This document shows, piece after piece, positions 1,524 through 4,627 of a stretch of DNA of 64,000 nucleotides. Under the pieces are notes generated by a model that saw nothing but the letters and a program-made list of their open reading frames with translations, was not told the DNA's origin and ran no database searches. The position numbers and the translations under genes are program-made. How positions within the stretch are numbered: the first letter of the stretch is position 1; every line of letters begins with the position of its first letter. The DNA is from Sphingomonas caseinilytica (GTDB lineage Bacteria > Pseudomonadota > Alphaproteobacteria > Sphingomonadales > Sphingomonadaceae), in assembly GCF_023516455.1 (NCBI RefSeq), contig NZ_JAMGBA010000001.1:310001-374000 (forward strand). The letters run 5' to 3'.

Positions 1524-2266
1524 AACATTCTCCTCAGGCGCTCGACCTCGCCCAGCATCAGGGGGCCCGCGCAGGTCCAAGGGCGGCCGTCGACTTCCAC
1601 GATGCGAGAGGATTTGGGGCGGGCGAGGGGATGTTCGAGCCAGGTCTGGCCGATGGATCGTTCGGAACGGCGGTAGGTAGATCGAAGCAAGATCTGCGGC
1701 GGGCGAGTTGCTAGCAGTTCCAGGCTTGCCCGACCGGCTGGAAGCGAGCGCTGCCTTAGGCCGGCTAGCCGCATCCATTCGGCCTCCACCGATTGGGCGC
1801 CGACGCTGTTGCCGCCAGCACCGAGGAAAATTGCGTCCTTTTCAGTGTGGCCCGTGCGACGCAGGCCCGCCAGGCGCCGGTTCCACGCTTCAGCACGGCG
1901 TGGTTCGCCGAGCGCCGCCGCGACCGTCGACAAGTTTCGCGCGACATCGTCAATTGTCATGGGGAAGGGGAGGTCGACAGTCTTGAGGCCCATGCGCTGG
2001 GCGATGACGGACGTCGATCGCCCGCCACCACCCATGGTTAGCAACAGGTTGGGCCGTGTTTTTAGCGCGCTTTCGAGATCGCCGCGGTTGCCGGGATAGC
2101 GCTGGCCCAACCGCCAAAGGCTGCTGTCAGCCGGGTCTCTCGACAACCGGCTGACGCTTGCGATCTCGTCGGGCTTGGCGAGCAGCAGCAGATATTCGTC
2201 GGCGCACATGTTGAGCGACGCGACGCGAAGGGTGCTAGCCGCCAATAGCGAAGCGAAGCCCGGCAT
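1520..2266 (-). CDS. btuF: BtuF-like periplasmic cobalamin-binding protein
   Basis: About 248 residues matching the helical-backbone substrate-binding family (TroA/BtuF): RVASLNMCADEYLLLLAKP near the start is the typical first strand-helix unit, followed by a ExxLxxxPxLLL-type element (ESALKTRPNLLL). It should capture cobalamin in the periplasm and pass it to BtuC. The ATG at 2266 follows a GGAAGGAGC ribosome site and lies inside the end of btuB (32-base overlap). The N-terminal hydrophobic stretch (PGFASLLAAST) is short for a signal peptide, so either export is weakly predicted or the start needs checking. Confidence 0.82.
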   Translation of the reverse strand: MPGFASLLAASTLRVASLNMCADEYLLLLAKPDEIASVSRLSRDPADSSLWRLGQRYPGNRGDLESALKTRPNLLLTMGGGGRSTSVIAQRMGLKTVDLPFPMTIDDVARNLSTVAAALGEPRRAEAWNRRLAGLRRTGHTEKDAIFLGAGGNSVGAQSVEAEWMRLAGLRQRSLPAGRASLELLATRPPQILLRSTYRRSERSIGQTWLEHPLARPKSSRIVEVDGRPWTCAGPLMLGEVERLRRML

Positions 2267-4055
2267 GGATGCTCCTTCCCTCCGTCCGGTAGCCGAACAC
2301 GTCCTGATAATCGTCGTCGAAGGCATTGGCGACGCGAAGATGGATCTCGACGGGATCGGCGACCCGATAGGCGATGCGGGCGCTAGCGAGCCAATAGGGG
2401 TCGAGCTTCACCAAGGCCGACGGGATGATGTCGAAGTTGGTGTCGGTTCGTTCGCCGGTGTAGGCGATCGCGGCGCCATAAGTGAAACGGCGGGATGTGC
2501 CGTCGATCGCGACGCTGCCGCTATGCTTGGGGCGCCGCTGCTCCTTCAGCTGGGCATCGTCCACATCTGGCTCGCTCGCGTCGAGCCAAGCATAGTTTAC
2601 GGTTAGTCGCAGCGCATCGGAGTGTTGATAAAAGCCTTCCAGTTCAACGCCCAGCCGCTTGCTCTTACCATCGGCATTCTCCGTCGTTGACGAGAAATCG
2701 GGCAGGAAGACCGTGGCGATCTCATCCTTCAAACGCTGATGGAAATAAGTGACCGACCCGCCGAACCGATCGGCCGAATAGCGGAGCGAGATCTCGCCGC
2801 CACGGCTCGATTCCGGCTTCAGGTCTGGATTGCCGGTGAAGGTGGGCGGGAAGAAGCCGAACAGGTCGAAGAAGCTGGGCTGGGCAATGCCTTCGCCAAA
2901 GCTGCCGGCAAGCGCGAATCCTTGGCCGAGTTCGGCCCTCAGCGCAGCGCGATAGGTGGTGGCGTCCTTGAATTCGGAGAAGATGTCGTGGCGAACCGCG
3001 ACATTGGCGCTGACCGGGCCAAGATCCTGCGCCGACCATTCGAGCGCTATGGATTCGTGGTGACGGGACTGGTCCTGGTGAGGGAAGTCGCCACGGACCT
3101 TGAAGGTCTCTCGCTCGCTTTCGACAGCGGCGATCAGCTGGTGCTTGCCGAACCGATGGCCGCCCTCCAGCCCGATGGTACGGCGCTTTGCTGAGGTACG
3201 GTTCAGCGGGTCCTCATCGACATAGTTACGGTTGGAGGAGCCGAGCAGGCTGGCCGAGCCGATGGCGTAGCTTCTGTCCCGATTGCCGGCCTCGAGGAAC
3301 AGTCGGCCTGCGGCCATGCGGTTCTTGCTGTTGTCGAGCGTGTCGGTGTGCGGGAATGGGAAGGTGCCGGAGATGCCGTCGAATTCGCTTTCCGCCCATT
3401 GCGCGAACCCGGACCCGCCGATGAGGAAGTTCGGATCGATCCTATAGCGGCCAGAGCCCCGAAGCCCAACGTTGCTGTAGCCGTCCCTGTCGCCGTCCCC
3501 GGCGACGCTGTTGATGCCGTTGCTGGTTTGTCCGGCAACGCCCAGCGAAATACTCCGATCGGCATCGCCGGCTTCGGTCCTTGCGGCGCCGCGCCAGGTG
3601 GCATGACTGCCGCCTTCGGCAAATGCCTGGGTGCCGCCAGAGCCTGGGGCGGCTCCCGTGACGGCGACAACGCCGCCGATCGCTTCCGATCCCCAGAGTG
3701 CCGATTGCGGGCCGCGCACGACTTCGATCTTGCTGGCGAGGTCGGCATTCAAAAGCTCGAAGCGCGGCTCATTGCCTGACGCGGGGTCGTTGGCGCGGAT
3801 TCCCTCCACAAACAACAATGTGTGATTGGCCTCGGCGCCCCGAATGCGCACCTGGGTCAGCGATCCGGCGGGGCCGCTGACGGCAACGGCCACGGACGGA
3901 ACCAGCCGGAGCAGGTCGGGGACGAGCGGCGAACCGATGCGTTCGATCCGTTTCGCATCGATGAGGGTAGCGCTGGCAGGCGTTTTGTCGGCGGTTTCTT
4001 CGGCGCGCGAGGCGGTAACGACAATCGCGGGCGGTTCTACTGGTAGATCAATCAC
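2235..4055 (-). CDS. btuB: TonB-dependent cobalamin receptor BtuB
   Basis: This is the outer-membrane receptor that would bring B12 into the periplasm using TonB energy. The plug domain begins near AIVVTASRAEET (TonB-box region), contains VRIRGAEANHTLLFVEGIR and VEVVRGPQSALWGSEAIGGVV-like segments typical of BtuB, and the C-terminal strand region VANAFDDDYQDVFGYRTEGR closely resembles E. coli BtuB. Length is about 606 residues. I chose the GTG at 4055 because GGAAGGAC lies five bases upstream. From this start, and from any in-frame start upstream, no signal peptide is visible, which is odd for an outer-membrane protein. A cobalamin riboswitch precedes the gene. Confidence 0.9.
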   Translation of the reverse strand: MIDLPVEPPAIVVTASRAEETADKTPASATLIDAKRIERIGSPLVPDLLRLVPSVAVAVSGPAGSLTQVRIRGAEANHTLLFVEGIRANDPASGNEPRFELLNADLASKIEVVRGPQSALWGSEAIGGVVAVTGAAPGSGGTQAFAEGGSHATWRGAARTEAGDADRSISLGVAGQTSNGINSVAGDGDRDGYSNVGLRGSGRYRIDPNFLIGGSGFAQWAESEFDGISGTFPFPHTDTLDNSKNRMAAGRLFLEAGNRDRSYAIGSASLLGSSNRNYVDEDPLNRTSAKRRTIGLEGGHRFGKHQLIAAVESERETFKVRGDFPHQDQSRHHESIALEWSAQDLGPVSANVAVRHDIFSEFKDATTYRAALRAELGQGFALAGSFGEGIAQPSFFDLFGFFPPTFTGNPDLKPESSRGGEISLRYSADRFGGSVTYFHQRLKDEIATVFLPDFSSTTENADGKSKRLGVELEGFYQHSDALRLTVNYAWLDASEPDVDDAQLKEQRRPKHSGSVAIDGTSRRFTYGAAIAYTGERTDTNFDIIPSALVKLDPYWLASARIAYRVADPVEIHLRVANAFDDDYQDVFGYRTEGRSIHAGLRFAIGG

Positions 4056-4100
4056 TTCAAGTCCTTCCGTTCCATGACAAGTCGTCACGGAGGGAAGGAC
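4053..4100 (-). promoter_or_regulatory. Hairpin masking the btuB ribosome-binding site
   Basis: On the transcript GUCCUUCC (4100-4093) is a perfect complement of GGAAGGAC (4068-4061), and the latter is the Shine-Dalgarno sequence just before the GTG start of btuB. Pairing would block translation. The first arm overlaps another possible helix (4140-4135 with 4103-4098), so the two are mutually exclusive, as expected for a switch. The pairing is directly visible; the regulatory role is inferred from its place between riboswitch and start codon. Confidence 0.7.
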
Positions 4101-4290
4101 CATGATGTCGTTGGCCTCACCCACGTCCCAAGGCTGGTCCCGGCCAAGGAAACGGACGACGGGCCAAGGCGGGTATCTGACTACGCTCGGCCCGAAGCCG
4201 AGATCACAGTTGCGGGCACAGTGCCGGATGTTCGCCGGCTTCCCCCTTCGCCCGCGGCATTACACCGCGGGAACCCTGGTCGCTGGGGCG
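4101..4290 (-). promoter_or_regulatory. Cobalamin (B12) riboswitch aptamer
   Basis: The minus-strand transcript carries the conserved cobalamin riboswitch core: CCGGCGAACATCCGG (4238-4224), then CCCGCAACTGTGA ending at 4204, then AGTCAGATACCCGCC (4182-4168). A peripheral stem CCCGCGG/CCGCGGG is formed by 4271-4265 and 4257-4251. This is the adenosylcobalamin-type aptamer found in front of btuB in many proteobacteria. With B12 bound it should reduce expression of the whole btuBFCD operon. Exact outer boundaries are approximate. Confidence 0.95.
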
Positions 4291-4396
4291 CGAACTGCGC
4301 TGGCGTGCCGCAACTTGTCAAGCACAGCGGCTTAAGCTAGTGGCGCCGCTCACCTTTTCAGGCTGGTCGGAACCAGCCACTTACAAGGAATTGATC

Positions 4397-4627
4397 ATGA
4401 AGAGCGGGACGCACCCCGATTATCACTTCATCACGGTCGAAATGACCGACGGCACCAAGTACCAGACCCGGTCGACTTGGGGCAAGGAAGGCGACACGCT
4501 GCACCTTGAAATCGATCCCACCGCCCACCCGGCCTGGACCGGCGGTCGCGGCCAGATGCTCGATACCGGTGGCCAGGTCGCGCGCTTCAACAAGCGCTTC
4601 GGCGGTCTTTCGCTCGGCAAGAAGTAA
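4397..4627 (+). CDS. rpmE: 50S ribosomal protein bL31
   Basis: A 76-residue ribosomal protein of the large subunit. [30 protein letters not shown] and HPAWTGG are hallmark bL31 segments, and the length is normal. The Cys pair that binds zinc in some bL31 proteins is absent, so this is the zinc-independent type. The ATG at 4397 follows AAGGA with seven bases of spacing; a longer frame starting at 4340 has no ribosome site. It is divergent from the btuB operon, and an acetyltransferase gene starts immediately after its stop. Confidence 0.96.

Follow-up and report, generated by a model that had tools for sequence, protein, structure and literature searches.

The window, by which we mean the whole stretch of 64,000 nucleotides that was analysed, carries on its minus strand a cobalamin riboswitch leader followed by btuB-, btuF- and btuC-like genes. 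The btuB-like gene (2235–4055) codes for a TonB-dependent receptor that starts at GTG 4055–4053, has no signal peptide and bears its TonB box, IVVTASR, at residues 11–17. The btuF-like gene (1520–2266; PF01497, 28.4 bits) codes for a periplasmic binding protein with a leader of about 13 residues free of K and R, and the btuC-like gene (567–1541; PF01032, 236.7 bits) for a FecCD permease. About 95 nt of leader separate the aptamer from the receptor gene. The hexamer TTGACA at 4316–4321 (minus strand), read from the sequence, is the probable −35 box of the leader transcript; 65 of 70 leaders of the genus carry it 150–420 nt before the start codon, and a promoter scan gave no full sigma-70 match.

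The start of btuF lies inside the last btuB codons (2235–2266, minus strand), its hydrophobic leader being overprinted on the last BtuB barrel strand. BtuF proteins of the genus have leaders of roughly 7–13 residues without K or R (e.g. MPGFASLLAAST), and those of some related genera are longer and contain R. Divergent from btuB and upstream of its leader lies rpmE, the gene for ribosomal protein L31. Just upstream of rpmE, on the plus strand, is a hairpin, GGCTGGTCGGAACCAGCC (4360–4390), whose core GCTGGTCGG..CCAG is kept with small variation at all 34 genus loci with rpmE found, from 35 searched. The Rfam L31-Coriobacteria leader model scores 23.4 bits here, below its cut-off of 33, and the hairpin is probably an L31 autoregulatory leader beyond the existing Rfam models. 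Matches above cut-offs to MetH and to AdoCbl-type NrdJ indicate that the genome uses B12. The MetH match is divided between two neighbouring open frames, L158 and L159 (G000:C2:985958-989475), which cover model residues 2–339 and 340–1182.

The covariance model RF00174 matches positions 4293–4151 of the minus strand with 65.1 bits (cut-off 31.5; E 8e-14), the sole match in the 2.78 Mb genome, which bears out the cobalamin riboswitch that the initial annotation had placed upstream of btuB. The aptamer, 143 nt long, is a short form without the long P8–P10 domain; this is not unusual, since the P8–P10–P11 domain of cobalamin riboswitches is called optional in a passage of PMC2258182. The Rfam alignment flags four non-standard pairs at the aptamer base. 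Leaders matching RF00174 precede btuB in 69 of the 71 genomes of the genus (Sphingomonas/Sphingomicrobium). The resulting set of 70 leaders includes two from genome G031 (L054 and L080) and omits G043, which has no clear btuB, and G065 (locus L103); ten start codons were placed by hand from the leaders (L049, L055, L077, L084, L085, L087, L091, L097, L098 and L099). We regard the leader as a new example of a known riboswitch type, predicted to bind adenosylcobalamin.

The start of btuB at GTG 4055–4053, with GGAAGGA (4068–4062) as a Shine-Dalgarno sequence at a spacing of 6 nt, was proposed in the initial annotation and is confirmed by comparison: L033, the nearest relative (protein 74% identical), has ATG at the same position. 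The upstream in-frame ATG 4103 and GTG 4124 fall within sequence conserved as RNA, and the frame there differs between species. Of 61 loci scored automatically, 59 have a Shine-Dalgarno sequence before the short start; L059 has none, and L091 was misplaced automatically and then set by hand. A mini-ORF that runs from ATG 4075 to a TGA overlapping the GTG start might have served for coupling; this idea was rejected, as by eye the mini-ORF is not kept in other species.

This Shine-Dalgarno sequence lies in the 3′ arm of a predicted sequestor hairpin (4061–4100, minus strand). The outer helix, in which GTCCTTCC (4100–4093) pairs exactly with GGAAGGAC (4068–4061), is the second of two helices in the initial annotation and stands as given there; it is extended by an inner helix of CCGTGAC (4090–4084) with GTCATGG (4078–4072), closing a loop at 4083–4079. 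The minimum free energy of −28.3 kcal/mol corresponds to a z of −5.9 against 100 dinucleotide shuffles, so the hairpin exceeds chance. Masking of the Shine-Dalgarno sequence, also claimed earlier, holds across the genus: 68 of 70 leaders are predicted to pair it with the upstream arm at a mean probability above 0.5, the two that fail (L047 and L091) being those in which the extraction pattern had shortened the folded stretch, and 66 of 70 have a z below −1. Two-sided changes in the sequestor outnumber those of every shuffle, yet registers slid by +1 to +3 match or surpass it in this respect, and the pairs seen in the window are kept in 62.8% of cells of the 70-row alignment, partly because the 3′ arm is poorly aligned in distant rows. 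A scan of 3950–4420 for intrinsic terminators found none on the minus strand and a single match on the plus strand, in agreement with the earlier statement that no T-rich terminator follows. A Shine-Dalgarno sequestor without a terminator makes translational control, as first suggested, probable.

The partner strand that would release the Shine-Dalgarno sequence differs from the one first proposed. The initial annotation had GGACCA pairing with TGGTCC as the competing helix, and this pairing fails the covariation test: pairs form in 45.1% of 286 cells, a level that 152 of 500 shuffles also reach, and slid registers give 40–62%. GGACCA does lie at 4140–4135, but TGGTCC is at 4102–4097 and not at 4103–4098; with the 3′ arm so placed, the overlap between the two helices is real and consists of bases 4100–4097 instead of 4100–4098. 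Six standard pairs in this single genome are what speaks for GGACCA/TGGTCC as the antisequestor. The nearest relative, L033, has GCGCGC at this position, the TGGTCC arm falls in a stretch missing from many relatives, and GGACCA makes up most of the loop of a P13-like hairpin. We therefore consider this antisequestor highly unlikely.

Comparison of the 70 leaders points instead to an ON structure in which a shared strand, CCCTCCGTGACGAC (4081–4094, minus strand), pairs with two segments on either side of the P13-like hairpin; in the OFF structure the same strand supplies the sequestor with its 5′ arm and its loop. In helix I, GTCGTC (4160–4155) at the 3′ end of the aptamer pairs with GACGAC (4086–4081) in 98.6% of cells. 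Helix I is nearly invariant, with no compensatory or double change, and covariation is consequently neutral on it, neither for nor against. The P13-like hairpin (4124–4154) has an outer stem, 4154–4149:4129–4124 (87.0% paired), an inner stem, 4145–4143:4134–4132 (96.1% paired, with two-sided changes at 4 of 4 pairs), and a loop, CGGGACCA (4142–4135), that is conserved in kind; position 4146:4131 is U-U in the window. In helix III, TGGG (4123–4120) pairs with CCCT (4094–4091) in 77.1% of cells, again with two-sided changes. Its pair 4120:4094 occurs as GC in 40, AU in 9, CG in 7 and GU in 6 of the 70 leaders, and 4123:4091 is non-standard in 53 of 70, all of these being U-U. The ON model is thus a predicted three-way junction of helix I, P13 and helix III.

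As a whole the four-helix ON model pairs in 90.3% of 1387 cells, a value reached by 0 of 500 shuffles, and slid registers give 35–73%. RNAalifold, run on the 70 leaders with no constraint, chose 4159–4155:4082–4086 and the hairpin 4146–4143:4131–4134. It also paired 4123–4121 with 4088–4090, which we replaced by 4123–4120:4091–4094, a pairing that covaries better. The best-covarying pairs of the whole alignment are 4145:4132 in P13 and 4120:4094 in helix III, with E-values of only 0.065 and 0.09 when judged against 200 structure-free alignments simulated on the tree. Inspection by eye of related genera likewise finds GTCGTC immediately 3′ of the aptamer and P13 outer stems built from other complementary letters, for example CGCGC/GCGCG and CACACC/GGTGTG. 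Pairing of GTCGTC with the 5′ strand of P1 was rejected: GCGAC (4283–4279) fits the window and its nearest relatives and, by eye, is absent in other species.

We consider it likely that the leader is a translational OFF switch for btuB-btuF-btuC in which strand 4094–4081 alternates between its ON and OFF partners; the aptamer, the P13-like hairpin and both alternative partners of this strand emerge from the comparison. In the ON state the strand would pair with GTCGTC (4160–4155) and TGGG (4123–4120) around P13 and leave the Shine-Dalgarno sequence free. In the OFF state it would fold back on 4078–4061 and hide the Shine-Dalgarno sequence that serves GTG 4055–4053. Binding of adenosylcobalamin would keep GTCGTC and P13 out of the ON structure, so that the sequestor forms and translation stops. 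The general logic of sequestor and antisequestor is set out for riboswitches in a section of PMC2258182. When helix I is forced, fewer bases are paired around the Shine-Dalgarno sequence in 61 of 70 leaders.

Nearest-neighbour energies favour the OFF structure in 64 of 70 leaders, by a median of 6.6 kcal/mol, and in the reference leader by 17 kcal/mol (−47.4 against −30.0 kcal/mol for ON). The ON structure would consequently need either to be set up during transcription, as a kinetic state, or to be helped by tertiary contacts. The same energies, together with aptamer scores that are low in the genus relative to other genera of the family, would also suit a constitutive structure for weak translation, with a sequestor that always forms and an aptamer that no longer switches. 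We hold this to be unlikely, since conservation across the 70 leaders extends to the aptamer core and to either strand of helix I, and GACGAC is kept even though half of it sits in the sequestor loop of near relatives. If the leader does switch between the two partners, the genus offers 70 natural variants on which to test a B12 riboswitch with its antisequestor wrapped around P13.

The receptor itself matches PF07715 (Plug) and PF00593 (beta-barrel) above cut-off. Its best family match is TIGR01779 (BtuB), from model position 31 and with 259.7 bits, below the equivalog cut-off of 599.7; the protein is BtuB-like and is not assigned to the TIGR01779 equivalog. The structure model (pLDDT 90.1, pTM 0.92, residues 1–8 disordered) has E. 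coli BtuB (1nqg) as its nearest solved structures, with a Foldseek E-value of 5.3e-51 and a TM score of 0.86 on the query. From the riboswitch, the btuF and btuC neighbours and this fold we infer that the receptor transports cobalamin. One genome of the genus (G045) has a distant BtuB (L099), 38% identical over the match and placed on a long branch. Its leader is of the usual kind, and the combination suggests that the receptor gene was replaced.

Outer-membrane proteins of the TonB-receptor kind normally need a signal peptide. Read from the GTG, the protein begins MIDLPVEPPAIVVTASR. Its TonB box takes up the final seven of these residues, so that MIDLPVEPPA is all that serves as a leader, and it does not qualify as an N-terminal Sec signal peptide. 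The initial annotation had accepted this start codon without noticing that the signal peptide is thereby lost. On a simple 8-residue average of hydrophobicity, which is not a trained signal-peptide predictor, 62 of the 70 btuB genes of the genus show no N-terminal signal peptide or hydrophobic core: 58 have no 8-residue stretch above 1.30 before the TonB box, and in four (L086, L087, L088 and L094) a hydrophobic stretch occurs only further inside, after FQDLPP. Eight genes start with a short, uncharged hydrophobic leader, e.g. MLTLLLAPVAAAAAAA. Just one of the 70 has K or R within its first ten residues. Ten normal signal peptides score 1.75–2.91 on the same scale, each with K or R near the start, and all seven of the other TonB receptors of the genome that were examined (from 18 further matches) have normal signal peptides. 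In a profile of 64 genus proteins, position 10 aligns with residue 4 of the 1nqe chain (E. coli BtuB); this, and the TIGR01779 match beginning at 31, indicates that the gene encodes the mature form. Several clades have a conserved start of the type M-x-FQDLPPPPP or DLPPPP in place of a signal peptide, among them L086, L088, L090, L091, L093, L094 and L095. Polyproline so near the start codon is expected to slow ribosomes.

A signal peptide could still be added if translation of btuB began further upstream or involved a frameshift. The frame is indeed open upstream to 4259 in the window, and a few loci (L083, L037 and L111) have a hydrophobic stretch in another frame. Against such a hidden start, 28 of the 70 genes have an in-frame stop no more than 30 codons from the TonB box, so that no upstream start can add a signal peptide there, and 24 of them lack any 8-residue stretch above 1.65; two leaderless genes limited by stops in this way (L059 and L078) reach values over 2.0 when every codon is allowed as a start. 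The upstream stretch is moreover conserved as RNA, in frames that differ, and the Shine-Dalgarno counts given above favour the short start. We rejected both of these routes to a signal peptide and consider them very unlikely.

Decay of the gene is a further reading, and three of the 70 genes are interrupted (L097, L098 and L116). The others give a different picture: 64 of 70 are intact and of full length, contig ends truncate another three, and dN/dS is 0.10–0.30 over the gene in nine pairs. Receptors without a signal peptide occur across a genus in which two BtuBs often share about 50% identity, and the riboswitch is kept. The receptor is under purifying selection and not in decay; that the gene is decaying was rejected on the intact reading frames and the dN/dS values and is scarcely credible.

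There remains the reading that the genus exports an outer-membrane B12 receptor without a signal peptide, the mature form being encoded from a few residues before the TonB box. The sequences imply such export, and we propose it tentatively, as a possibility still short of an even chance. A quick tree of 74 proteins without their N-terminal part (L084 and L152 were dropped as they could not be trimmed) shows at least three changes of leader state, a count that by itself does not separate gain from loss. Eleven relatives from other genera on the tree have short uncharged leaders, with starts chosen by eye. Most simply read, the leader has been shrinking, disappeared early in the genus and came back at least once. 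BtuF, with its very short leader, may follow the same trend. Export without an N-terminal Sec signal might proceed by targeting through the mature chain, through a permissive translocon or with the help of a partner.

The receptor without a signal peptide is, more than the riboswitch, the unusual part of this locus. A passage of PMC5963308 describes export without a signal in prl translocon mutants. In the open-access papers searched we found no recognisable description of a natural TonB-dependent receptor lacking a signal peptide or of this leader, and a term search of the accessible text of PMC7142613, on sphingomonad receptors, found signal peptides unmentioned. If the receptor is exported in this way, a conserved and selected protein would provide a natural test of the dependence of Sec on a signal peptide. 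Pipelines that identify outer-membrane proteins by their signal peptides would miss these receptors.

Among known systems, the corrinoid riboswitch of P. megaterium metE offers a parallel for P13. Ligand binding to other corrinoid riboswitches stabilises P13 through an L5–L13 kissing loop, and in metE the P13 that follows the aptamer acts as a relay, as parts of PMC10653944 describe. By analogy, P13 may relay ligand binding here as well. The L13 of metE uses CGG, and the P13 loop of our leader likewise begins with CGG. The metE element ends in a terminator and antiterminator, whereas here there is a Shine-Dalgarno sequestor, and inspection by eye found no complement between the P13 loop CGGGACCA and L5 (CGAACAU, 4234–4228). 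Compared with E. coli BtuB (1nqg, 1nqe), the receptor is 24% identical and, unlike it, is encoded without a signal peptide; it shares with it the plug, the barrel and the TonB box, and the profile match extends over nearly the full length. The E. coli btuB riboswitch (RF00174) is the closest counterpart of the leader. There, according to the relevant passages of PMC11162775, the OFF structure hides the Shine-Dalgarno sequence and the ON structure pairs the anti-Shine-Dalgarno strand with an upstream (anti-anti-Shine-Dalgarno) strand. Our leader differs in its short aptamer and in an ON strand that would be split to either side of P13 (4160–4155 and 4123–4120), and it resembles the E. coli riboswitch in having the aptamer 5′ of btuB and in following, by prediction, the same anti-Shine-Dalgarno logic.
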